Positions 45,024 through 57,780 of a stretch of DNA of 64,000 bases are shown here, one piece after another (within the stretch, counting starts at the first letter, position 1; each line of letters begins with the position of its first letter). Below the pieces are notes generated by a model. The model was not told the DNA's origin. It saw only the letters and a program-made list of their open reading frames with translations, and made no database searches. Both the position numbers and the translations under genes were made by a program. Source of the stretch: Acidimicrobiaceae bacterium (lineage in GTDB: Bacteria; Actinomycetota; Acidimicrobiia; Acidimicrobiales; Ilumatobacteraceae); contig CANFGT010000001.1 in the NCBI GenBank assembly GCA_947446815.1, positions 248,001 to 312,000 of the forward strand. The letters are read 5' to 3'.

Positions 45024-46124
45024 TTAGCCCTTGGCGAGGCCGAGGACTCTCTCGCCCAAGATGTTGCGCATCACGTTCGATGTGCCACCCATGATGGTGT
45101 ATCCAGGTCCGTAGATGAGGCCCTGCACCATGTCATCAAAAATCATGCCATCGGCACCCATCATGCGGAAGACAAAACTGTCGACTCGTTGTTGATGTTC
45201 AGTACAGAAACACTTTGTTGCTGCAGAGAAGCCTGCAGGTGCTTGCTTGAGAACTTCACGAATCACCAAGATACGTCCGACGCGGTATCCGATTTCGAGG
45301 GCTGCAATTTCTTGTCGCACGAGAGGGTCGCTGGTATCGCAGACTGAAATTGCATGCTGGAATTGTGCATAGTTCGAAACAAGACGGTCGATGCCACCGC
45401 GCTCATGTTCCAACTGCCGCATTGTCTGACCAAAAGCGCCACCGGGTTGACCCACGAGATTTCTCTTTGGTACTCGCGCGTCGGTGAAGAACACTTCGCA
45501 GAAGTGGCGGTTGGTGGTCATGTCGGTGATGCGACGAATTTCAATGCCTGGTGTATTCATCGGCACGATGATTTCGCTGATGCCGGCGTGTGGTGGTCCT
45601 TCGTTGTTCGTGCGACAGATGAGATAGCAATAGTCAGCATCAGCACCAAAGCTTGTCCAAATCTTTTGTCCGTTGATGATCCACTCATCACCGTCATCGA
45701 CTGCAGATGTCTTCAAAGATGCGAGGTCGCTTCCCGAGTTGGGTTCACTCATTCCGATGCACCATGTTGTTTCGCCAGCGAGGATCCCAGGGAGAAACTC
45801 TTCCTGTTGTTCCTTGGTGCCGTACTGAATGAGAGCCGGGCCCATCTGACGATCGCCAAACCAAGAAGCAGCAATTGGTGCACCGGCCTTGATCATTTCT
45901 TCGCCCACGATGAGGCGGTCGATTGGTGGACGTCCACCGCCACCAAACTCCTTTGGCCAAATCATTCCGAGGTAGCCCTTTTGTGACAGCTCTCGGGAAA
46001 ATTCTTTGGAGTAGCCGTTCATCCAGGTGACGTTGTGGCGGCCGTATTTACGTACGCCTTCAGCTGCAAATTCGGCAGCCTCGCGGCGCAGTTCGATCTG
46101 TTCTGGGGTCCACACAAAATCCAT
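45024..46124 (-). CDS. Acyl-CoA dehydrogenase family protein
   Basis: 366 aa from the ATG at 46124, giving MDFVWTPEQIELRREAAEFAAEGV. A longer frame into the icd promoter region is rejected. It shows WPKEFGGGGRPPIDRLIVGEEM, CIGMSEPNSGSDLASLKTSA (FAD site), ADYCYLICRT, LVGQPGGAFGQTMRQLEHERGGIDRL and the end GPGYTIMGGTSNVMRNILGERVLGL. GGTSNV lies where many homologs have GGTSEI, so the FAD-contact loop is slightly unusual and the catalytic base is not obvious. It oxidises an acyl-CoA, substrate unknown. It is divergent from icd. Confidence 0.88.
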   Translation of the reverse strand: MDFVWTPEQIELRREAAEFAAEGVRKYGRHNVTWMNGYSKEFSRELSQKGYLGMIWPKEFGGGGRPPIDRLIVGEEMIKAGAPIAASWFGDRQMGPALIQYGTKEQQEEFLPGILAGETTWCIGMSEPNSGSDLASLKTSAVDDGDEWIINGQKIWTSFGADADYCYLICRTNNEGPPHAGISEIIVPMNTPGIEIRRITDMTTNRHFCEVFFTDARVPKRNLVGQPGGAFGQTMRQLEHERGGIDRLVSNYAQFQHAISVCDTSDPLVRQEIAALEIGYRVGRILVIREVLKQAPAGFSAATKCFCTEHQQRVDSFVFRMMGADGMIFDDMVQGLIYGPGYTIMGGTSNVMRNILGERVLGLAKG

Positions 46125-46165
46125 ATGACTATTGATGGTAGGGGGCGTGCAGACCGCCTGCGCTA

Positions 46166-46190
46166 TTGTGTACAAGTCAAATACAAGTGA
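46166..46190. promoter_or_regulatory. Putative GntR operator upstream of icd (shared with acn/gntR)
   Basis: The 20-bp sequence TACAAGTCAAATACAAGTGA (46171-46190) matches the acn/gntR intergenic site at 18 of 20 positions. It contains TACAAGT twice with an 11-bp period. At 46166-46175 a TTGT-GT-ACAA palindrome resembles TGTA-N2-TACA-type sites of HutC-subfamily regulators. It sits between icd and the divergent acyl-CoA dehydrogenase gene. Regulator assignment is inference. Confidence 0.6.
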
Positions 46191-46241
46191 CTCTTGGCGG
46201 CCCAAATATCGGGCTGGCTGAGCAATTGAAAGGGTGCCCCC

Positions 46242-47459
46242 ATGGCGAAGATCAAGGTTGACAATCCAGTCGTTGAACTCGACGGCGACGAGATGACCCG
46301 CATCATCTGGCAGTTCATCAAAGAGCGCCTCATCCTCCCGTACCTCGACATCGATCTTGAGTACTACGACCTCGGCATGGAGAATCGCGACGCGACCGAT
46401 GACCAAGTCACCATCGATTCCGCACACGCAATCCTCAAACACGGCGTGGGCGTAAAGTGCGCCACCATCACCCCCGACGAAGCTCGCGTTGAAGAGTTCG
46501 GCTTGAAGAAGATGTGGAAGTCACCAAACGGCACCATCCGTAACATCCTCGGCGGTGTTGTATTCCGTGAACCCATCATCTGTAGCAATATTCCAAAGCT
46601 TGTTCCTGGCTGGACGAAGCCCATTGTCATTGGTCGTCATGCGCATGGTGATCAATACAAGGCAACCGACTTCAAGGTTCCTGGCGAAGGAACGGTCACG
46701 ATGACTTTCCAGCCGAAGGATGGCAGTGCTCCAATGGAATTCACCATTGCTGATTACGGTCCTGACGGCGGTGTTGCCATGGGTATGTACAACTTCAACG
46801 ACAGCATCCGTGACTTCGCTCGTGCATCATTCCGTTACGGTCTTTCGCGCAACTATCCGGTGTACATGAGCACGAAGAACACCATCCTCAAGGCCTACGA
46901 CGGCCAGTTCAAGGATTTGTTCGAGGAAATCTTCGTTGCAGAGTTCAAGGCTGACTTCGACAAGGCAGGCCTCACATACGAGCACCGTCTCATCGACGAC
47001 ATGGTTGCAAGTGCCATGAAGTGGGAGGGCGGTTACGTCTGGGCATGTAAGAACTACGACGGAGACGTTCAGTCCGACACCGTTGCGCAGGGATTCGGTT
47101 CTCTTGGTCTCATGACATCAGTGTTGATGACACCAGATGGCAAGACAGTGGAAGCAGAAGCCGCACACGGCACAGTGACGCGTCACTACCGCGAGCACCA
47201 GAAGGGCAACAAGACTTCAACGAACCCCATTGCATCTGTGTACGCATGGACCGGTGGTCTGAAGCATCGTGGCAAGTTGGACAACAATGCAGCGCTCATC
47301 AAGTTTGCGGAAGATCTCGAGGCGGTATGTGTCGAGAGTGTCGAAGCAGGTGAAATGACAAAGGACTTGGCTCTTCTTATTTCGAAAGAACAGCCATGGT
47401 TGACCACCGAGGAGTACCTCGCAGCACTGGACCGTCGACTCCAAGCGAAGATGGCATAA
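46242..47459 (+). CDS. icd: NADP-dependent isocitrate dehydrogenase (homodimeric, eukaryote-like type)
   Basis: 405 aa. It starts [56 protein letters not shown], characteristic of the IDH1/IDH2-like dimeric subfamily rather than E. coli Icd. [19 protein letters not shown] supplies the substrate Ser-Asn-Arg contacts. [36 protein letters not shown] (metal Asp) and the [15 protein letters not shown] coenzyme loop follow. It decarboxylates isocitrate to 2-oxoglutarate with NADPH. AAAGGG precedes the ATG by 8 bp. It lies 4 bp before the quinone reductase gene and downstream of a putative GntR site. Confidence 0.96.
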
Positions 47460-47463
47460 CCCA

Positions 47464-48444
47464 ATGAAGGCCATCGTTCTCCGCGAGCATGGTGGGCCAG
47501 AAGTTCTGCAATTCGAGGATGTTCCATCGCCAACTATTGGCGCTGAGGACATCCTCGTTTCAGTTGCAGCAACGGCCCTCAATCGTGCAGACCTCTTGCA
47601 GCGCATGGGGTTTTACCCAAATCCATTTCCTCAAGGACCAGAGATTCCGGGTCTTGAATTCGCTGGCACTGTAAAAGCAATGGGCGAGCGTGTCACGGCA
47701 TGGAAAGTGGGCGACAAGGTGATGGGCATTGTCAGCGGTGGCGCCTATGCCGAAGAACTTGCACTACATGAGCGTCAAGCAATGGCCGTGCCTGAAGGCA
47801 TGTCATTGCACGATGCTGCTGCGATACCTGAAGTGTTCATCACCGCATGGGATGCACTTGTTGTCCAAGGTGGACTCACGTCTGGTCGTTGGGCCATGGT
47901 GCACGCAGGTGCTTCTGGTGTCGGAACTGCCGGTATTCAGATTGCCAAAGCAATCGGTACACGCATCATCGTGACGTGTTCATCAGGCAAGGTGCAGTCT
48001 TGTAAAGATCTCGGCGCCGACGTTGTTGTTGACTACAACTCGCAAGACTTCGTTGAAGAAGTGCAAAAAGCTACAGGCGGTCAAGGTGTCGATGTCATCC
48101 TTGACGTCATCGGTGGCGACTATGTGGAACGCAATGTTTCTTCTCTTGCTGTGAAGGGTCACATCATTCAAGTGGGTGTGATGGCAGGTAAGCCGTTGCC
48201 GTTCAATGTTGGGCTCCTGTTAGGGAAGCGCGCTTCCATTACGGGAACCGTTTTACGAGCACGTCCGTTGGATGAAAAGATTGCTATCACCCAACGATTT
48301 ATTTCTGAGATGTTGCCCTTGTTTGATTCCGGCGAATTGAAGCCAGTCATCGACTCCGTCTATCCCATCGCAGACATTGCGAAGGGTCAGGAGTACATGG
48401 CGTCGAACGGCAATGTCGGAAAGATTGTCATCACAATCGCATAG
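47464..48444 (+). CDS. Zinc-free MDR NAD(P)H quinone oxidoreductase (PIG3/QOR-like)
   Basis: 326 aa. The N-terminal GroES-like domain reads VAATALNRADLLQRMGFYPNPFPQGPEIPGLEFAGTV, which is the PIG3 group pattern without structural zinc cysteines. The NADPH-binding Rossmann segment is WAMVHAGASGVGTAGIQIAKAIGTRIIVTCSSG. DVILDVIGGDYVERNVSSLAVKGHIIQVG follows. It reduces quinones or related enones. It begins 4 bp after icd and could use the same transcript; a strong terminator follows. Confidence 0.9.
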   Translation: MKAIVLREHGGPEVLQFEDVPSPTIGAEDILVSVAATALNRADLLQRMGFYPNPFPQGPEIPGLEFAGTVKAMGERVTAWKVGDKVMGIVSGGAYAEELALHERQAMAVPEGMSLHDAAAIPEVFITAWDALVVQGGLTSGRWAMVHAGASGVGTAGIQIAKAIGTRIIVTCSSGKVQSCKDLGADVVVDYNSQDFVEEVQKATGGQGVDVILDVIGGDYVERNVSSLAVKGHIIQVGVMAGKPLPFNVGLLLGKRASITGTVLRARPLDEKIAITQRFISEMLPLFDSGELKPVIDSVYPIADIAKGQEYMASNGNVGKIVITIA

Positions 48445-48457
48445 AAACCGATGCATC

Positions 48458-48491
48458 AAAAAAGGCGATGCCAAACGGCATCGCCTTTTTT
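48458..48491. terminator. Bidirectional intrinsic terminator between the icd operon and gltA
   Basis: AAAAAAGGCGATGCC (48458-48472) pairs with GGCATCGCCTTTTTT (48477-48491) around loop AAAC. A and T runs on both flanks let it end the icd-quinone reductase transcript and the converging gltA transcript. Confidence 0.95.
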
Positions 48492-48513
48492 ATTTCCGCA
48501 GTTCTGCGGAGAG

Positions 48514-48563
48514 AGTTATCGCTTAGCGATGGGAACCTAGTTATCGCTTTGCAATGGGAACGT
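48514..48563. repeat. 25-bp tandem duplication at the 3' end of gltA
   Basis: 48514-48538 (outside the gene) and 48539-48563 (last codons of gltA) match at 22 of 25 positions. On the minus strand both read as VPIAKR followed by a stop, so the gene end has been copied once just downstream. It lies between the stop codon and the terminator. Confidence 0.85.
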
Positions 48564-49809
48564 AGTTGCGCTCGTCGGCACCGATGTACCACTGGCGTGG
48601 ACGGCTGATCTTTTGTTCCTTGTCTGCAAGAAGCTCCTGCATGTGGGCCAACCAGCCCACGGTGCGAGGAATTGCGAAGAGAACAGTGAACATGTCAACT
48701 GGGAATCCGAGTGCCTGGTAGATGAGGCCCGAGTAGAAGTCCACGTTTGGATACAGCTTGCGCTTGATGAAGTACTCATCGCTCAGCGCAGCCTTTTCAA
48801 GCTCGAGTGCGATGTCGAGTAATGGATTCATGCCTGTGACTGCGAATACGTCGTATGCCGTCTTCTTGATGATGGTGGCACGTGGGTCGAAGTTCTTGTA
48901 CACGCGGTGGCCGAATCCCATGAGCCGACCTTCGCCAGCCTTCACGCTTTCGATGAATGCAGGAACATTCTTGACATCGCCAATTTCAGTAAGCATGCGC
49001 ACGACTGCTTCGTTGGCGCCACCGTGAAGTGGGCCGTACAGAGCAGATGCAGCAGCAGCTGTGGATGTATACGGATCAGAGTTGGCTGACGAAACCACAC
49101 GCATTGCCGTGGTGCCACAGTTCTGCTCATGGTCTGCGTGCAAGATGAAGAGAACGTCCATTGCGCGGGCAAGGACTGGGTTTACTTTGTAGTCCTCACC
49201 AATCTTGAACATCATGTTCAAGAAGTTCTCGCCATAAGACAGCGAGTTGTTTGGCATCACGAAGGGGAGACCCTGGCTGAAGCGGTAACACATTGCGGCA
49301 ATGGTGGGAACCTTTGCAACAAGGCGAAGCACTTGCTTATCGAAAGTTTCCTTGTCGAAGATTTCTTTAGCTTCTTCGTAGAACGTTCCGAGTGCTGCAG
49401 TTGCTGAGATGAACATTCCCATGGGGTGCGCGTCGTAATGGAAGCCATCAACGAAACGCTTGCGCATATTCTCGTGAATCATGGTGTGGCGAGTGACGTT
49501 GTATTCCCACTCGTTCTTCTGTTCCGCTGTGGGTAGTTCACCGTTCAGGAGTAGGTATGCCACTTCGAGATAGGAAGAACTCTCAGCAAGTTGCTCGATG
49601 GGATATCCGCGGTAACGAAGGATGCCGTTGTCACCGTCGAGGTAAGTGATGGCCGAAGCACATGATGCTGTCGACAAGTACGCAGGGTCGTACATGAAAA
49701 GACTGGGGTCGAGGTCTCGCAATGCAGAAGAAGAGAACACTCCGCCCTCAATGGGAACGGTGACGGTTTTGCCGGTGCGATCATCGGTAATTGTGATGCT
49801 GTCAGCCAT
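48541..49809 (-). CDS. gltA: Citrate synthase
   Basis: A 422-aa type II-like citrate synthase condensing oxaloacetate and acetyl-CoA. Active-site regions are LHADHEQNCGTTAMRVVSSANSDPY, LYGPLHGGANEAVVRML (His), GFGHRVYKNFDPRATIIKK (His and Arg) and the late YSGLIYQALGFPVDMFTVLFAIPRTVGWLAHMQE with the catalytic Asp just before it (NVDFYSG). An AAGGAG lies 8 bp before the ATG. The acn/icd-type 20-bp site is not present in the 113-bp gap upstream. Confidence 0.95.
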   Translation of the reverse strand: MADSITITDDRTGKTVTVPIEGGVFSSSALRDLDPSLFMYDPAYLSTASCASAITYLDGDNGILRYRGYPIEQLAESSSYLEVAYLLLNGELPTAEQKNEWEYNVTRHTMIHENMRKRFVDGFHYDAHPMGMFISATAALGTFYEEAKEIFDKETFDKQVLRLVAKVPTIAAMCYRFSQGLPFVMPNNSLSYGENFLNMMFKIGEDYKVNPVLARAMDVLFILHADHEQNCGTTAMRVVSSANSDPYTSTAAAASALYGPLHGGANEAVVRMLTEIGDVKNVPAFIESVKAGEGRLMGFGHRVYKNFDPRATIIKKTAYDVFAVTGMNPLLDIALELEKAALSDEYFIKRKLYPNVDFYSGLIYQALGFPVDMFTVLFAIPRTVGWLAHMQELLADKEQKISRPRQWYIGADERNYVPIAKR

Positions 49810-49922
49810 GATGGGTCTCCTTGACTACTGACGAAATATGACGGAGGAATGCCATTTCCCCCACATGTCAGGCTAGTTGAACTCAGGAGTGGCTGCCCAC
49901 TCACATGATTATGGCAATTGGC

Positions 49923-51386
49923 TCACAAGGGAGTGTTGTCGTGTTTGCGTGATCCAAGGCGTTCGCGCTTGTCTCGAAGCATGTGAAGTGCTGCACAAAT
50001 CTCGCTACGAGTGTCTGCGGGGTCAATCACGGCATCGACATACCCACGTTCGGCTGCCACGTAGGGGTTGAGCAAACGCTGGGTGTAATCGGCTTCAAAA
50101 GCAGCTCGTTCTTCGGGGGTGGCTCGACGTTGAAGGATGGCGGCGGCCTGTCCGGCGCCCATGACGGCCAATTCTGCCCATGGCCATGCAAGACAGAGGT
50201 CGTTGCCCATCTCTTTGGAGTCCATCACGATGTATGCACCGCCATAAGACTTGCGAAGAATGACGCAGATGCGAGGAACTGTGGCACGCGCATAAGCAAA
50301 AACGAGTTGAGCACCATGGCGAATCATTCCGCGCCATTCGAGGTCTTTGCCGGGATAGAAACCGGGCGTATCCACCAAGGTAATGACAGGGATATTGAAT
50401 GCATCACAGAATGCAACAAACCGAGCGGCCTTTTGTGATGCAGGGATGTCGAGGGTGCCGGCCAAGTTGATCGGTTGGTTTGCCACAATGCCAACGGAGT
50501 ATCCAGCCATATGGGCAAAAGCTGTGATGACGTTTCCGGCCCAGCGCGCTTTCGTCTCCATGTACACGCCATCGTCTGCGATTGACTCAATCACTTTGCG
50601 AACGTCGTAGCTTCCTGTCGAAGTTTCCGGGACAAGCGCGCCTGCCTCGGGAGTTGAACGTGCATCGTCATCGTCTGTTGCCATCAACGGAGCTAGTTGG
50701 TCAACATTGTTAGGAAGGTATTCGAGTAATTCCTCTACCCATGCAGTCGCTGATGCAAGATCAGCAACGACTGCAGAAGTTGCGCCGCTGTTGCGTGCAT
50801 GTGTATTTGCGCCACCAAGCTCATCGTTGCTCATCGTGATGCCGGTGAATTCAGCAACCATGGTCGGGCCACTCACAAATGCATATGAGTCTTCGGTCAT
50901 GACAACAAAGTCGGAGAGACCAATAAGAAGTGCGGGTCCCGATACTGCAGGTCCTGTGACAATGCTGATTGTCGGAACAACGCCTGAACATTCCGCAAGA
51001 GACTTTGCCGCCATGCCCCATCCATGAAGAGCAGCAATGCCTTCCAAAATGTCAGCTCCGGATGATTCAATTTGCAGAATAAGCGGAAGACCCTTGGTAC
51101 GTGCCGTGGTTGCGGCAGTGGCAATGACATGGGATGCCGCAGCAGAAAGCGATCCTTTATGATGTCCACCATCAACGGTGAGCCATACGACATCACGATC
51201 GGTCTGTAGTCGGACAATTGCGGCAGAGGCTGCGCCAGGAACGCTGTGTTGTAGTTCAAGCACAACGGTGGGTTGTGTTGTACCGGCCTCGCTCACGCCC
51301 ACCACAGTAGACGGTGGCCTATCCGCGGGTTCCTTTGGCTTGTTTTGCACCAATATCGAGTGAGATTCCTGGTTGGCGCGGGGCAT
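49923..51386 (-). CDS. Acyl-CoA carboxylase carboxyltransferase (beta-subunit type)
   Basis: 487 aa as drawn from the ATG at 51386. Two crotonase-fold halves are present. The N half has LQIESSGADILEGIAALHGWGMAA and VSGPALLIGLSDFVVMTEDSYAFVSGP. The C half has YSVGIVANQPINLAGTLDIPASQKAARFVAFCDAFNIPVITLVDTPGFYPGKDLEWRGMIRHGAQLVFAYARATVPRICVILRKSYGGAYIVM. It is of the propionyl/acetyl-CoA carboxylase beta kind. No zinc ribbon and no biotin carboxylase gene are adjacent. The drawn start overlaps the lysR 3' end by 68 bp out of frame; GTG codons near 51305 or 51296 would remove this. Confidence 0.85.
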   Translation of the reverse strand: MPRANQESHSILVQNKPKEPADRPPSTVVGVSEAGTTQPTVVLELQHSVPGAASAAIVRLQTDRDVVWLTVDGGHHKGSLSAAASHVIATAATTARTKGLPLILQIESSGADILEGIAALHGWGMAAKSLAECSGVVPTISIVTGPAVSGPALLIGLSDFVVMTEDSYAFVSGPTMVAEFTGITMSNDELGGANTHARNSGATSAVVADLASATAWVEELLEYLPNNVDQLAPLMATDDDDARSTPEAGALVPETSTGSYDVRKVIESIADDGVYMETKARWAGNVITAFAHMAGYSVGIVANQPINLAGTLDIPASQKAARFVAFCDAFNIPVITLVDTPGFYPGKDLEWRGMIRHGAQLVFAYARATVPRICVILRKSYGGAYIVMDSKEMGNDLCLAWPWAELAVMGAGQAAAILQRRATPEERAAFEADYTQRLLNPYVAAERGYVDAVIDPADTRSEICAALHMLRDKRERLGSRKHDNTPL

Positions 51387-52260
51387 GTCGGCTCACTACT
51401 TCAAGAGCGACATCTCGGACGGCCAAAGTGGCTCGGTTAGGGCGCGGGCGTTCACGTTGCACCCATCCGACCACACGGCGTGGAAGGTCGGGAACTCCGA
51501 TACGTACGAAGTCACCTTTCAGCCATCCTGGCACGGCACTCGCAGGAACAATCGCTGCGCCAAATCCTTCGAACACAAGAGAAGCCATGAGGCGCATTCC
51601 GTCAATTTCTGCTTGGGCACGAAGCGCCACGCCTTTGCTTGCGGCTGCGCGATCAATAATTCGACGTGCGGCCGTGCCACGCGGGGCAAGCATGATGGGG
51701 TATTCGGATAACTCCTCAAGCGAGACGGTGTCGCGGGACGCCAACTCGTGTTTCTTCGGCGCAAGGAGAAAGAGTTCTTCTGCGAACATTTCTTTTGTTT
51801 CGACGTTGGCCTCTGCGATGGGGAAGTGAACGAGCGCAGCATCAATTTCACCGCTTTTAAGACGAAGCATGAGTGCGCTTGATGCGCCTTCTACGATCGT
51901 GAGGCGAACTCCTGGATGATGACGTGTCAGTGAGTTCAAGAGCGGTGGCATTAACCAACGTGCCGTCGTTCCCAACGTTCCGATGCGACAGTCGCCAGTT
52001 ACTGAGTCGCCGAGCGAGTGGATATCGGTGTCGATGTCTTCCACCTCATGCAGAATGCGTTTGGCGCGTGCCAAGACCATCTCGCCTTCATCTGTCAGTT
52101 CGCCGGTGGCGCGATCAATGAGAGAACTACCGAGCTCTTTCTCCAGGCGACTGAGGTGGGCCGACACATTTGATTGCACCGTGTCAAGGGCCTTGGCAGC
52201 CGCTGAGAAGGAGCCATGTTCAGAAATGGCCACGAGAGCTTGCAGTTGCTTGATTTCCAT
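51319..52260 (-). CDS. LysR-family transcriptional regulator
   Basis: 313 aa from the ATG at 52260, giving MEIKQLQALVAISEHGSFSAAAKALDTVQSNVSAHLSRLEKELGSSLIDR, a standard LysR HTH. An in-frame ATG 42 nt earlier would include part of the operator-like palindrome and is less likely. The effector domain (about 90-300) has CRIGTLGTTARWLMPPLLNSL and GFGAAIVPASAVPGWL. The inducer is unknown. It is upstream of and overlaps the carboxyltransferase gene, so that gene is the likely target, together with itself. Confidence 0.88.
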   Translation of the reverse strand: MEIKQLQALVAISEHGSFSAAAKALDTVQSNVSAHLSRLEKELGSSLIDRATGELTDEGEMVLARAKRILHEVEDIDTDIHSLGDSVTGDCRIGTLGTTARWLMPPLLNSLTRHHPGVRLTIVEGASSALMLRLKSGEIDAALVHFPIAEANVETKEMFAEELFLLAPKKHELASRDTVSLEELSEYPIMLAPRGTAARRIIDRAAASKGVALRAQAEIDGMRLMASLVFEGFGAAIVPASAVPGWLKGDFVRIGVPDLPRRVVGWVQRERPRPNRATLAVRDVALEVVSRHAPRQPGISLDIGAKQAKGTRG

Positions 52261-52292
52261 ATTGGGACCCCTGGCTTTACCTATCTCTAAAA

Positions 52293-52309
52293 ACGATAGC
52301 AAGTATCGT
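52293..52309. promoter_or_regulatory. Palindrome before the LysR gene, probable autoregulatory site
   Basis: ACGATA-GCAAG-TATCGT is a perfect 6-bp inverted repeat with a 5-bp spacer, containing an ATA-N5-TAT core. It lies 32 bp upstream of the lysR ATG on one side and 10 bp before the 6C RNA -35 box on the other, so LysR bound here could affect both. Assignment is by position and symmetry only. Confidence 0.45.
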
Positions 52310-52319
52310 GTCGTTCGAC

Positions 52320-52348
52320 TTGAGTGTTAGCTCTTACCGGTGCATAAT
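52320..52348 (+). promoter_or_regulatory. Promoter of the 6C RNA
   Basis: TTGAGT 52320-52325, a 17-bp spacer, and CATAAT 52343-52348 form a vegetative-type promoter. The predicted transcript start is near 52355, just before the first 6C hairpin. Confidence 0.6.
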
Positions 52349-52354
52349 TTGAAG

Positions 52355-52463
52355 TAACAAATCGCGCCGGCATTGCCCCCCAATAGCCGGCCGAAAGAAC
52401 CCAACAGATGTTCCCCCAACATCGGGTTTCGGTTGAGAGGCCCCGCAGCAATGCGGGGCTTTT
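52355..52463 (+). ncRNA. 6C small RNA
   Basis: Two hairpins with C-only loops and a terminator. The first stem is GCCGGC 52366-52371 with GCCGGC 52386-52391, with CCCCCC at 52376-52381. The second is CCGAAA 52391-52396 with TTTCGG 52427-52432, helped by ACCC/GGGT and ATGTT/AACAT, with CCCCC at 52413-52417 in the loop. The third is an intrinsic terminator. This is the architecture of the actinobacterial 6C RNA (B11 in M. tuberculosis), which as I recall also lies next to a HAD-family gene. The start is estimated from the promoter. Confidence 0.85.
52440..52463 (+). terminator. Intrinsic terminator of the 6C RNA
   Basis: GCCCCGCA 52440-52447 pairs with TGCGGGGC 52452-52459 around a GCAA (GNRA) loop, followed by TTTT. 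No protein gene lies upstream on this strand, which supports an independent small RNA ending here. Confidence 0.9.
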
Positions 52464-52520
52464 CCCATTCGTAGGCCAGATTCAGAGCTGGTGAAACTTT
52501 TGGTTTCGCGCAGGGCAGAA

Positions 52521-52539
52521 CGGGCGTAATCTTCGCCCG
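52521..52539 (+). promoter_or_regulatory. Inverted repeat touching the HAD-PlsC start codon
   Basis: CGGGCG 52521-52526 pairs with CGCCCG 52534-52539, whose last base is the G of the GTG start. There is no Shine-Dalgarno. The hairpin would sequester the start of a long mRNA, unless transcription begins close to the GTG. Confidence 0.4.
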
Positions 52540-53963
52540 TGTCGCACGCAGCCTTCTTTGACCTTGATCGCACTCTGTTGTCCGGTGCGTCTGCACATGT
52601 GGTGAGCCGTGTCCTGCGCGAAACCGGTGTGGTGAATCGCAACATTCCTGGCGAGTCTTTTCTGTATCAAGTGTTTGAGACCTTTGGTGAGAACTTGCCG
52701 TCGATGGTGTTGGGTCGCCAAGCAGTGTTGGCGATGAAAGGCCACTCACGTGAGATTGTTCGTGCGGCTGCAGAAACAGCAGCTCCTGATCTTGTTGCGA
52801 TGTTGCAACCGTACGCATCAAAAGTGATGGACGAACATCGAGCCAACGGATTGAAAGTTGTTCTTGCAACGACAACACCGCGCGATCTCATTGAACCATT
52901 CGCGCATCTCATGGGTTTCGATGCAGTGATCGCTACGACGTATGCAGTTGATGCCGACGGCAATTACACCGGCGAGCTTGATGGTGTGTACGTATGGTCG
53001 CGTGGCAAACGTGATGCAGTGAAGTCTTGGGCAAGTGACAACAACATTGATCTCGCAGGTTCCTTTGCCTATAGCGACAGTGTCTTTGATGAGCCGTTAT
53101 TGACATCTGTGGGTCACCCCGTCTGTGTGAATCCAGATTGGCGTCTTCGCTTGATGGCTGCTGCACGTCGCTGGCCCGTCACACATTTCGATGTGCCTGC
53201 TGGTGTCGCAAAGATTCCCGTGGTTGGTCTTGAAGCACAACAAGCGTTGATGAAGTTTGCACGCCCTGAAGTGTTTCCGTATGCCCGCTTCACGATCACA
53301 GGCACAGAGAACATTCCGAAAGACTCTGCTGCGATCATCTGCGGTAATCACCGCAGCTACTTTGACATCGCCGCAATTTCTTTAGCGGTCGCAAAAACTG
53401 GTCGTGCAGTTCGCTTCTTGGGCAAGAAGGAAGTGTTTGATGCTCCTGTGATTGGTCCACTTGCAACTGCGCTCGGTGGCATTCGTGTAGAACGCGGCAC
53501 AGGAAGCGATGAACCGTTGCAAGCAGCGACAGAATCATTAATCGCAGGTGACTTGGTGGCAATCATGCCGCAGGGAACAATCCCGCGAGGTCCTGCATTC
53601 TTTGATCCGGTGCTGAAGGGGCGTTGGGGAGCTGCGCGATTGGCCGCAGAAACAAAAGCGACTGTGATTCCCGTAGGAATTTGGGGAACCGAAAAAGTGT
53701 GGCCTCGCAACGCAAAGTTGCCGAACATCACAAACCTCACATCGCCACCTCAGGTCATCATCACCGTTGGTGCTCCTGTGCAGTTGTCGTACACCGACCC
53801 TGATGCCGACACGAAACTGATCATGGAAGCCATCTCTGCGCTATTGCCCCCTGAAGGCCGCGAGTACTACGAACCCACAGAAGATGAACTACGTCGTAGC
53901 TATCCGTCCAATTACACAGGAGACCCGGACTCCGAAGAAGATCGGCGCCCGGGTCTCGATTAA
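52539..53963 (+). CDS. HAD-IB phosphatase-like / 1-acylglycerol-3-phosphate acyltransferase fusion
   Basis: 474 aa, GTG start at 52539. The N-terminal HAD domain (about 1-215) has FFDLDRTLL with Asp8 and Asp10, VVLATTTPRD and AYSDSVFDEPLL, a SerB-type pattern. The C-terminal PlsC domain (about 245-445) has NHRSYFD (His271, Asp276; the HX4D motif) and IMPQGTIPRG. Such fusions in mycobacteria are linked to phospholipid synthesis. It would make phosphatidate, upstream of the CdsA reaction. The C-terminal 30 residues are acidic and Pro/Ser-rich. The 6C RNA lies just upstream. Confidence 0.9.
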   Translation: MSHAAFFDLDRTLLSGASAHVVSRVLRETGVVNRNIPGESFLYQVFETFGENLPSMVLGRQAVLAMKGHSREIVRAAAETAAPDLVAMLQPYASKVMDEHRANGLKVVLATTTPRDLIEPFAHLMGFDAVIATTYAVDADGNYTGELDGVYVWSRGKRDAVKSWASDNNIDLAGSFAYSDSVFDEPLLTSVGHPVCVNPDWRLRLMAAARRWPVTHFDVPAGVAKIPVVGLEAQQALMKFARPEVFPYARFTITGTENIPKDSAAIICGNHRSYFDIAAISLAVAKTGRAVRFLGKKEVFDAPVIGPLATALGGIRVERGTGSDEPLQAATESLIAGDLVAIMPQGTIPRGPAFFDPVLKGRWGAARLAAETKATVIPVGIWGTEKVWPRNAKLPNITNLTSPPQVIITVGAPVQLSYTDPDADTKLIMEAISALLPPEGREYYEPTEDELRRSYPSNYTGDPDSEEDRRPGLD

Positions 53964-53976
53964 GTCTTGAGTTATT

Positions 53977-53993
53977 GAGCGATGTCATCGCTC
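53977..53993. other. Hairpin between convergent HAD-PlsC and acn
   Basis: GAGCGA 53977-53982 pairs with TCGCTC 53988-53993. It lacks a T-run on either side, so termination activity is doubtful. It is the only structure in this 37-bp convergent gap. Confidence 0.3.
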
Positions 53994-54000
53994 GTACTGC

Positions 54001-56268
54001 CTACTTTGCGTCGGCAACTTTCTGACGAACGATGTTCAGTGCAGAACCTGCCTTGAACCATTCCACCTGCTCGGGGCTGAACGTATGCTTTGCTTCGAAG
54101 TCAACGGTGGAACCGTCAGCCTTGGTGATGCGGCACTGCACTGGCTTGTCGGGCACTGGAGGAAGATTCAGCACGCTGATGCGGTCTGTTTCTTCAATAG
54201 CGTCGTACGTTGCTGGGTCAGAGAAGGTGAGGGGCACGAGGCCCTGCTTCTTCAAGTTTGTTTCGTGAATACGAGCAAACGAACGAGCGAAGATAACAAC
54301 GCCACCGCGGAAGCGAGGCTCCATTGCTGCGTGCTCACGTGATGAGCCCTCGCCGTAGTTCTGGTCACCAATCGCACACCACTGCACGCCGGACTCGCCG
54401 TAATGCTTTGCAATGTCTGGGTAACTGCGACGTGAACCATCGATGGTGTCGAGGCCTGTGCCCACTTCGCCGCCGTATGCATTCACTGCACCGATGAAGA
54501 GGTTGCCCGAGATGTTCTCAAGGTGACCGCGGTATGTAAGCCACTTGCCTGCAGCCGAGATGTGGTCGGTCGTGCACTTGCCCTGAGCCTTCATGAGAAC
54601 AGGCAACTCGATGTAATCCTTGCCATTCCATGCGGTGAACGGCTGCAACAATTGCAAACGATCAGAGGTAGGGCTTACTTCAACAACGACATCACTGCCA
54701 TCTGCTGGCGGGGTAGTGAAGGTGTCCACGCCTGAGTCGTATCCATTTGCAGGAAGAATGTCGCCGTGTGGAGCGTCGAGTTTTACCTCGGTGCCGTCAG
54801 GTGCAGTAATCGTGTCAACGCTTGGATCAAAGTCGAGACGACCGGACAATGCAATTGCCATCACGGTGTCGGGGCTTGTCACAAATGACAACGTATTGGC
54901 GGAGCCATCTGCACGCTTCGGGAAGTTGCGGTTGAAAGAGTTCACAATGCTGTTCGGCTTTGCTGTCTTGTCTGCTGCCCGCTCCCACTGACCAATGCAA
55001 GGTCCACATGCATTGGCAAGAACAGTTGCACCAATTGCTTCGAGGTCTGCAAGCAAACCGTCACGCTCGATGGTGGCGCGAATCTGCTCACTTCCCGGCG
55101 AGATGAGCAATTCAACTTTCGCCTTCAGGCCTTTTGCAGCTGCTTGACGCGCGATCGATGCTGCACGCGTGATGTCTTCGTACGAAGAGTTGGTGCATGA
55201 ACCGATGAGTGTTGCGGACACTTCAAGTGGCCAATCGTTTTCACGGGCTGCTGCACCAACGCCGTTTGCACCAATCTTGTGCGCACGGTCGGGAGAGTGT
55301 GGGCCATTGATGAGTGGTGTGAGCTTCGACAAGTCGATTTCAATGACTTGGTCGTACTGCGCACCATCATCGGGGCGAAGATCAGTTGCGACCCTGTCGG
55401 CTGCTGCCGCGATCGCTTCACGACCTGTTGCACGCAAGTACTCGCTCATGTTGCTGTCGTAACCGAATACGGAACACGTCGCGCCAATTTCTGCACCCAT
55501 GTTGCAGATAGTCGCCTTGCCTGTTGCAGAGATGCTGTCGGCACCAGGTCCGAAGTATTCAGCAATCGCGCCTGTGCCGCCTTCAACGGTGAGTTGACGA
55601 GCGACTTCCAAGATGACGTCCTTCGGGCTGCTCCAGCCAGAGAGTGTTCCGGTGAGCTTGATGCCGATGACTTTTGGCCAACGAACATTGAAAGGGAATC
55701 CGGTCATCACGTCAACGGCGTCAGCGCCACCAACACCGATGGCGACCATGCCGAGTCCGCCAGCGTTAGGAGTGTGGCTGTCGGTGCCGATCATCATTCC
55801 GCCAGGGAATGCGTAGTTCTCGAGAACGACTTGGTGAATGATTCCGCTGCCAGGACCCCAGAAGCCAACGCCGTACTTTGCGCTGACGCTGCGAAGGAAG
55901 TCGTAGACCTCGCGGTTGACATCGTTTGCGTCACGGAGGTCGAGCTTGGCACCGACCTTTGCGAGGATGAGGTGGTCACAGTGCACCGTTGAAGGAACAG
56001 CGGTGGCGGGAAGTCCTGCGGTCATGAACTGCAAGAGGGCCATCTGGGCGGTGGCGTCTTGCATGGCGACTCGGTCTGGATTGAAGTCGGCGTAGCTACG
56101 GCCACGCTCCATTTCTTGTGACTTGGGGTCAACGAGGTGGTTGATGAGAATCTTCTCTGCCAAGGAGAGTGGGCGTCCAAGACGCTCGCGGCCAAGCGCT
56201 GCATTCGCGGACAGCTTGGCGTACACGCCTTCGACTAGTTCGATGGGGGTTCCGGCGGAAACAGCCAT
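54001..56268 (-). CDS. acn: Aconitate hydratase (mitochondrial-aconitase-like)
   Basis: 755 aa from the ATG at 56268, preceded by AAAGGTG; a longer frame upstream would cross the regulatory region. Cluster ligands are Cys358 (IGSCTNSS), Cys421 and Cys424 ([10 protein letters not shown]), the same numbers known for pig mitochondrial aconitase. [32 protein letters not shown] and [26 protein letters not shown] are substrate and cluster regions. The swivel domain has [15 protein letters not shown]. It converts citrate to isocitrate. It is divergent from a GntR regulator gene, with a shared operator-like site between. Confidence 0.96.
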
Positions 56269-56321
56269 GGGGGACACCTTTCGTCGTGCAAGACAGAGCG
56301 GGCTTGCTTTTTCTCTCTGTG

Positions 56322-56343
56322 TATACAACTCTAATACAAGTGA
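56322..56343. promoter_or_regulatory. Putative GntR operator between acn and gntR
   Basis: TACAACTCTAATACAAGTGA (56324-56343) matches the icd upstream site at 18 of 20 positions. TACAACT and TACAAGT repeat with an 11-bp period, and TGTATACA is a short palindrome at its left end. The GTG start of gntR (56340-56342) lies inside it, so binding should block gntR and could affect acn as well. Confidence 0.6.
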
Positions 56344-57071
56344 GAACTATCCGCTATCACCAGATTGCCGAAGAACTGAGGGGCCGCGTTCTCAGTGGCG
56401 CCTATGCAGCGGGTCGCTTGATGCCGAGCGAGTCGGATCTTTCTACCGAATTTGATGTCAGTCGGGTGACGGTGCGTAAGGCGCTGGAGATGTTGCGCGA
56501 CGACGGCCTTGTTGATTCACGGCAAGGGTTTGGCTGGTTTGTGGCAGGCGAGACTGTGCGACAACCATTGGCGCGACTTGCCACCATTGAAGAACAAATG
56601 CGTGACTCAGGGGCTGCGCCAGAACGTCGTGTTCTGGAATTTGCATTCGAAAAAGCGCCGAAGGATGTTGCTACTTCTTTAGGTACGTCGCAGGTTTTGC
56701 GAGTTCGTCGCGTGAACTTGGCTGATGGTGAACCATTCGCAATTGTCACCGTGTGGTGTTCGGCAGAGCTAGGTCAAAACTTGTCACGCGCTGATGTTGA
56801 ACGTTCGCCGTTCTATGAATTGTTAGATGTTCCGCTTGCGGGTGCAACACAAACGATTGGTGCCGATGCTGCAACCACTGAAGAAGCAGAACTGTTAAAG
56901 GTCCCAGTGGGTTCTCCCGTGTTGCGATGCTTGCGGACAACATCCAGCGTGGAGGGCAAGACAGTGTTGTTCTCACGACACGTGTTTCCTGCGCACCGCA
57001 CGGAGTTTGTTGTGGACTTGCCGTTCGTCGATCAATCGATCGCACCAAGCGGCCTTCGCCTCGTTGACTAG
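56340..57071 (+). CDS. GntR-family (HutC subfamily) transcriptional regulator
   Basis: 243 aa from the GTG at 56340, giving [68 protein letters not shown], a complete winged-helix domain (3-68). The C-terminal UTRA ligand domain (about 85-225) shows [22 protein letters not shown] and [27 protein letters not shown]. There is no Shine-Dalgarno, so it may be translated from a nearly leaderless mRNA. Its position beside acn, and the shared motif at icd, suggest it senses a TCA or related metabolite. Confidence 0.88.
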
Positions 57072-57075
57072 TTAG

Positions 57076-57780
57076 TTAGGCGAGGAACTGCTTCGTCCAG
57101 CCGGCGAAGTCCTTTGCCAAACCGTCACGCATTGCGGTGATGACTTCGGCACGTAGACGCTTCTTGCTGTGATTGTGTGCATCCATGTTCAGGGCAAGGT
57201 ATGACTTCGCAAGATTCAGTGCGGTGTCCATCAACTCGGACTCTTCGACCACGAGATCAAGAAAGCCTGTTTCCACTGCATTCTCTGGTGTGAAGACTTC
57301 GGCCATCAACACCGAGCGGCTCAGTGCTGCTGGTGTGATGCGATGACGAAGAATCTCAATTGTCGAGAATGGCATCGTCATGCCGATGGCAACTTCGTTC
57401 GCCGTGTAGCGATAGTTGCCCTTGACGCCAATGCGGTAGTCGCAGCTCTCTAAGAAGAACACACCCATTGCGATGGCATGTCCAGGACATGCAGCGATGA
57501 TTGGAGTCGGGAATGACAGCAAACGAATTGCTAATTCAATTCCACCATTCAGCATGTCGACTGCTGGCTGACCGCTTGCAGCGAGAATTTTGAGGTCAAA
57601 GCCTGCCGACAAAATTCCGGGACGTCCTGTGAGAACAACGGGAGCCTTGTCTTTTTCTGCTTGATCTAACGCTGCGTTGAGCCCAGCTTGCAGCGTCGGA
57701 GACACTGCATTCGCTTTGCCATCGTCCATGGTGATGACAGCGACGCCATCGGTGAGTGCATACGTAACAGGGGATGTCAT
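57076..57780 (-). CDS. Crotonase-fold enoyl-CoA hydratase/isomerase family protein
   Basis: A 234-aa protein. It shows the crotonase layout VAVITMDDGKANAVSPTLQAGLNAALDQAEKD, VVLTGRPGILSAGFDLKIL (first oxyanion strand) and IIAACPGHAIAMGVFFLESCDYRIG (second). In hydratases the glutamates usually follow these positions; here GHAIAMG and the later NEVAIGMTMP lack an obvious pair, so it may be an isomerase or hydrolase. It is the second gene of a short minus-strand pair with the nitroreductase gene 4 bp upstream. Confidence 0.87.
   Translation of the reverse strand: MTSPVTYALTDGVAVITMDDGKANAVSPTLQAGLNAALDQAEKDKAPVVLTGRPGILSAGFDLKILAASGQPAVDMLNGGIELAIRLLSFPTPIIAACPGHAIAMGVFFLESCDYRIGVKGNYRYTANEVAIGMTMPFSTIEILRHRITPAALSRSVLMAEVFTPENAVETGFLDLVVEESELMDTALNLAKSYLALNMDAHNHSKKRLRAEVITAMRDGLAKDFAGWTKQFLA

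Follow-up and report, generated by a model that had tools for sequence, protein, structure and literature searches.

Direct repeats at icd and acn/gntR in the window

The DNA analysed (the window) is a stretch of 64,000 nucleotides of contig CANFGT010000001.1 from an Acidimicrobiaceae bacterium of the Ilumatobacteraceae, a family placed by the NCBI taxonomy in Acidimicrobiales, Acidimicrobiia. It carries genes for a type II NADP-isocitrate dehydrogenase (icd; isocitrate dehydrogenase is abbreviated IDH below), for aconitate hydratase (acn) and, divergent from acn, for a regulator of the GntR family (gntR), with a putative operator at icd and another between acn and gntR (Table 1). A 20-bp motif common to the two places had been described in an earlier note on this DNA and was confirmed: TACAAGTCAAATACAAGTGA is found at 46171-46190, upstream of icd, and TACAACTCTAATACAAGTGA at 56324-56343, between acn and gntR, with 18 of the 20 positions identical. 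The repeat units within each copy lie 11 bp apart and the GTG start codon of gntR (56340) falls inside the acn/gntR copy, both as the earlier note had described.

When the window was scanned with a degenerate pattern allowing up to three mismatches, the two 20-mer sites were the only matches, and 100 shuffles of the window gave a mean of 0.04 matches and in no instance two. This pattern was derived from the two sites themselves, so that a fair test is an independent one in relatives. A matrix derived from relatives ranked the two sites first and second in the window at 39.9 and 29.3 bits, the next best position reaching 4.7, with the acn/gntR site belonging to the class on which the matrix was trained. 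The source genome (1.96 Mb) contained one further site at three mismatches, which scored 6.4 with the later matrix, below the null maximum of 7.5, and the exact repeat pattern was passed there by the window's two sites only. A larger regulon in the source genome was rejected, other one-mismatch repeats being at control level (4 versus 11 in the control), and a search of this genome for a gene resembling tam, the trans-aconitate methyltransferase gene, gave no match at an expectation value (E) of 1e-25.

The GntR protein consists of an N-terminal winged helix (Pfam PF00392, 69.1 bits, cut-off 27) and a C-terminal UTRA domain (PF07702, 93.3 bits, cut-off 23.8) and by this domain content is a member of the GntR family, HutC (UTRA) subfamily. 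Its score of 131.5 bits against the model of HutC, the histidine utilisation repressor (NCBIfam TIGR02018), is under the cut-off of 220, so that the protein is not assigned to HutC itself. The closest solved structures are those of YvoA and DasR, and a plasmid search found GntR relatives, of less than 60% identity, in 2053 records.

Table 1. Genes, putative operators and predicted promoter elements of the window
Feature	Position	Strand	Basis or remark
Acyl-CoA dehydrogenase gene, divergent from icd, marker of the icd locus	45024..46124	-	Pfam
Predicted -10 box of icd, TATTGT	46164..46169	+	TANNNT at an offset common across icd upstreams
Putative icd operator, direct repeat ACAAGT (46172-46177) and ACAAGT (46183-46188)	46170..46190	+	
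icd, type II NADP-isocitrate dehydrogenase, proposed target	46242..47459	+	NCBIfam PRK08299, 764 bits, cut-off 335
acn, aconitate hydratase, proposed target	54001..56271	-	NCBIfam TIGR01340, 1076 bits, cut-off 825
Putative operator of divergent acn and gntR, ACAACT (56325-56330) and ACAAGT (56336-56341)	56320..56342	.	
Predicted -10 box of acn (minus-strand TAGAGT), within the operator spacer	56328..56333	-	
gntR, GntR winged helix and UTRA, 243 amino acids, proposed repressor	56340..57071	+	

Conservation of the repeat in relatives and its absence from lineages without gntR

Genomes of the family (150, drawn evenly from a larger group) were searched for gntR, which matched at E 1e-20 or better in 112; four of these matches were at only 31-34% identity, leaving 108 likely orthologues, and 80 named gntR loci were kept of 166 found. 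The consensus in Ilumatobacteraceae is a direct repeat with an 11-bp period, RKACAAGT-N3-RKACAAGT, and at up to three mismatches to this consensus, itself read off acn/gntR loci of this kind, a site was present within 520 bp upstream of gntR in all 80 named loci. The two genes were divergent in each of the 75 named loci that include acn. Sites lay anywhere between overlapping the gntR start and hundreds of bases from it, so that their conservation is not explained by coding constraint. At up to two mismatches, 126 matches were obtained in 101 of the 150 genomes, and none with a reversed control pattern; 99 lay at acn/gntR, 19 at icd, seven at tam and one at monomeric idh (124 placed by coordinates, that of G093 by sequence and that of G078 once the truncation of its acn alignment was taken into account). 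The HutC-like element TGTA-N2-TACA invoked by the earlier note was not borne out and was rejected as the recognised element, since its columns differ between acn and icd sites and the common feature is the direct repeat.

Two further observations were made at these loci. In L105, L107 and L108 a short reading frame of glyoxalase/VOC-type appearance (by eye) precedes gntR immediately, between acn and gntR where acn is present. Eight loci (L039, L043, L045, L060, L067, L091, L092, L096) carry an Ilumatobacteraceae-type gntR in records titled Bifidobacterium breve, Ferrithrix thermotolerans or Acidobacteria, which are therefore probably mislabelled metagenome-assembled genomes.

Sites before icd were scored with a matrix trained on 35 distinct acn/gntR sites only, at a threshold of 7.6; the maximum in 1095 shuffled upstreams was 7.5. 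Of the 84 genomes with icd, 79 were scored and five were left out as the alignment stops short of the gene start (G062, G080, G093, G095, G149); the site of G093 was seen separately, and a second, partial icd copy in G143 was not scored. The earlier note had let its proposal depend on the site persisting in relatives that keep gntR, and it did so before icd as it did before gntR: 65 of the 66 scored gntR-positive genomes exceeded the threshold, the sole exception, G091, having a weaker reversed copy (score 3.2). Among the 13 scored genomes without a gntR orthologue, ten had no site and three had one; these three contain no acn or a partial acn, and gntR is therefore probably missing from the assembly. 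The acyl-CoA dehydrogenase gene stands divergent from icd in 18 of 30 icd loci; of the 12 without it within 1.5 kb, 11 still had the forward site, so this gene marks the icd locus and is not thought to be a target. As the earlier note had held, the citrate synthase gene gltA has no site: all 41 gltA upstreams present among the 80 named loci lacked it, and gltA was rejected as a target.

A gntR orthologue was missing from 42 of the 150 genomes (38 without a match and the four with the 31-34% match), 31 of which belong to four genera: 12/12 sampled genomes of g10, 11/11 of g14, 6/12 of g4 and 2/12 of g6, genomes within one lineage not being independent. Both states, gntR present and missing, occur within g4 and g6. 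In the other 11 genomes gntR is probably missing from the assembly and not lost; among them an icd site was found in G081, G087 and G094, a monomeric-idh site in G110 and G132, and an acn site in G015, where the contig ends 31 bases later. The icd site was gone in all ten scored genomes of three loss lineages, a set that includes three genomes also without an acn match (G032, G128, G146), and in two of the ten (L248, L251) what is read as a decayed relic of the site stands in place. At acn, which 24 gntR-lacking genomes contain, none of the 18 scored upstreams had a site or scored above 1.3; of the remaining six, five are genomes in which the contig found lacks the start of acn (G047, G094, G097, G134, G140) and the sixth is G015. 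A tblastn search of 11 acn upstream stretches from loss-lineage genomes found gntR in none, and in all 11 the nitroreductase gene that lies downstream of gntR in the window adjoins acn. Among the 63 named gntR-positive loci with enough sequence, 45 have this gene no more than 2.5 kb from gntR, so that the gntR-nitroreductase order is frequent without being universal. The two are separated in the window by an enoyl-CoA hydratase-like gene (57076-57780), which is near gntR in only 17 of the 63 named loci and is not found between acn and nitroreductase where gntR is deleted.

Beyond the family, gntR was matched at E 1e-35 in 61 of 296 genomes of the class, 43 of them outside Ilumatobacteraceae. 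It adjoins acn in 39 of the 43, with the repeat before gntR in 38 of these 39; several of the repeats have one changed base in one unit, and G209 has a degenerate copy only (score 3.5). The two genes are divergent in families of the same order, and in the sampled families of other orders gntR lies upstream of acn on one strand. In a sample of 396 genomes of the phylum, 16 matched gntR at E 1e-40, and every one of these belongs to the same order.

Taken with sites at other genes, the regulon appears wider in relatives than acn and icd, extending to tam and to other IDH types. The monomeric NADP-IDH (TIGR00178), which is not homologous to the type II enzyme, has a site in 14 of 45 upstreams (that of L341 being only about 190 bp long) and in none of the 11 genomes of g14. 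In 11 of 30 monomeric-IDH loci the divergent neighbour is the same acyl-CoA dehydrogenase gene as at icd, and the operator is present in ten of these 11, a pattern read as one IDH type having replaced the other, in either order, at a locus that retained its operator. At the thresholds used, type II and monomeric IDH never occurred together (84 and 45 of the 150 genomes, no overlap), and this exclusion holds even within genera g11 and g19. The tam-like protein has trans-aconitate 2-methyltransferase as its best model, at 195-207 bits in four proteins and under the cut-off of 320; of 30 tam loci the partial gene of L312 was not scored and the distant paralogue of L313 was excluded, and a site was present at 18 of the remaining 28. 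Outside the family, sites were found at three type II icd genes and, as single cases, at type I IDH in G179, at the AcnA aconitase in G249 and at sucB in G325. In the last an exact repeat (L390:1501-1518) lies between lpd and sucB, and another (L386:1501-1518, read by eye) precedes a TauE/SafE-like gene in G401; each is one case and, with no second one, neither was accepted as a target. Nor was the site of L403, which lies inside a gltB-like reading frame (by eye).

Operator architecture, proposed mechanism and other readings

Column analysis showed both RKACAAGT units conserved in all target classes, tam being represented by only six distinct sites, and the three spacer columns conserved at acn/gntR only. 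The acn/gntR spacer carries TANNNT on the acn strand in 33 of 35 distinct sites and on the gntR strand in 19 of 35. At icd, in 51 of the 68 promoters with a site, the gap from the predicted TANNNT box to the first ACAAGT is 2 bp, an offset of -8; in eight more the offset is -9 and in five -6. Such placement, on or just after the predicted -10 boxes of acn and icd, would suit a repressor. In nine named loci (L071, L072, L073, L075, L085, L086, L087, L091, L096) the acn-gntR gap is 20 bp long and is the putative operator itself, containing overlapping divergent predicted TATAAT and TATACT boxes with starts at leaderless distance, so that both genes are apparently leaderless there.

The HutC-type GntR protein probably represses acn and icd through RKACAAGT-N3-RKACAAGT and is released by a tricarboxylic acid, with binding, repression and ligand inferred from the DNA. 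GntR, with its winged helix and UTRA domain, would bind the direct repeat; at acn/gntR the predicted acn -10 box falls within the repeat, and a bound protein would shut off acn and also, in many relatives, gntR itself, giving autoregulation. The icd copy of the repeat begins 2 bp downstream of the predicted -10 box and extends to about +13, where the bound protein would prevent initiation. A tam-like gene may be a further target of this repressor in those members of the family that have larger genomes. A tricarboxylic acid (citrate, isocitrate, cis- or trans-aconitate) that accumulates when aconitase is scarce or damaged would most likely bind the UTRA domain, and the ligand-bound protein would leave the DNA, inducing acn and icd together. 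The tie of GntR to acn/icd co-regulation, put forward in the earlier note, gains support from the conservation of the site with gntR and its loss without gntR; the regulon and its link to gntR are well supported by comparison, and repression with release by a ligand is the likeliest reading.

Several observations weigh against this account. Member genomes are related and the counts are not independent events; only 12 of the 30 gntR-positive monomeric-IDH genomes have an above-threshold site within 350 bp, where the divergent acyl-CoA dehydrogenase is missing, none of the 19 monomeric-IDH loci passes the threshold (two reach 7.0 with repeats intact), ten of the 28 tam orthologues have no site, and the putative operator departs from the HutC palindrome. 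In the window no TANNNT box for gntR was found in 56301-56350, leaving the gntR promoter unplaced. An exact-pattern scan of the 43 genomes outside the family gave 31 matches, eight of them away from gntR, against four in the control, and single cases outside the family may therefore be chance; no search there was aimed at IDH genes. In four of the 43 (G249, G339, G348, G401) gntR does not adjoin acn and has no site nearby, and binding by GntR is inferred from sequence. The last two points also favour the alternative that the repeat belongs to some other transcription factor, gntR being just one more target that happens to lie beside acn, as does the location of the repeat in G249 at the AcnA aconitase, 51 kb from gntR. 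This alternative is nevertheless considered unlikely: acn sites are missing together with gntR in four genera, and icd sites in three, with the acn neighbour persisting, and the repeat precedes gntR in both arrangements, divergent and gntR-acn, as expected of an autoregulator.

Activation of acn and icd by GntR would equally produce co-regulation, which by itself fits either sign. A protein bound on or just downstream of a -10 box would block polymerase, however, and this is where the sites lie relative to the predicted boxes; gntR has also been lost in several lineages that retain acn, and activation is on these grounds highly improbable. Hardly any credence can be given to the repeat being a promoter element, part of the -10/-35 signal, despite its overlap with predicted -10 boxes at acn, gntR and tam, since the predicted -10 box of icd lies outside it, its orientation with respect to IDH genes can be either one (L173, L333 and L335, at low scores of 3.2 to 7.0; L391; L411), the -10 conservation sits in the spacer and not in the repeats, and gntR-less relatives retain acn and idh genes without it.

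Comparison with known aconitase regulators and the HutC subfamily

With HutC, NagR/YvoA, DasR, PhnF, FarR, NagQ and SdhR the protein shares the GntR winged helix and UTRA domain. According to a publication on this subfamily (PMC4494728), most members bind a palindrome, GTMTAKAC, whereas here no palindrome of that type was found and the conserved element is the direct repeat of RKACAAGT with its ACAAGT core. The same publication reports direct-repeat operators for FarR and NagQ, and the missing palindrome therefore does not exclude membership. Its main text contains none of the words aconit-, isocitrate and citrate. Going by its name only, SdhR may be another tricarboxylic acid cycle regulator of the subfamily. 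A literature search over titles and the beginnings of abstracts, covering few subscription journals, found no GntR/HutC regulator of aconitase and IDH.

The putative operator lies at the aconitase promoter, as for AcnR, TamR and CcpC, judging by sequence and predicted promoters; the protein itself, GntR plus UTRA by Pfam, does not have the TetR, MarR or LysR fold of these three. In Corynebacterium glutamicum the TetR protein AcnR controls aconitase and binds citrate-Mg (PMC4746285). Its fold differs from the GntR/UTRA architecture found here. The acnR gene adjoins acn in that species, and icd is not known as a target of AcnR. For Bacillus, PMC8514465 describes CcpC as a citrate-responsive regulator of the tricarboxylic branch that binds the citB promoter. 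CcpC belongs to the LysR family, unlike the present protein. It also acts on citrate synthase, whose gene gltA is without a site here. TamR of Streptomyces coelicolor, named after trans-aconitate methyltransferase, represses several citric acid cycle genes including that for aconitase and is released by citrate and trans-aconitate (PMC5487221). The targets acn and tam are common to TamR and the proposed GntR system; TamR is a MarR-family protein, in contrast to a GntR/UTRA protein with its gene beside acn and a putative ACAAGT direct-repeat operator.

The GntR/UTRA system is most likely the counterpart of AcnR, CcpC and TamR in Acidimicrobiia. It is thought rather likely that it represents a fourth independently built aconitase/IDH switch, of HutC-type GntR and present in several orders of the class, whose operator outlives the genes behind it, with type II or monomeric IDH at one locus, tam joined in larger genomes, type I IDH and AcnA in single genomes, and a 20-bp operator/double -10 element in the nine loci described above. 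How regulator, site and enzyme are connected lends itself to direct testing, thanks to the natural losses of gntR and to a locus that carries one IDH type or the other. The acIV bacteria are abundant in freshwater, and if the proposal holds, these mostly uncultivated organisms would have a defined regulator of central carbon flow, and the control of aconitase and IDH with trans-aconitate removal would have been solved by GntR as well as by TetR, LysR and MarR proteins.

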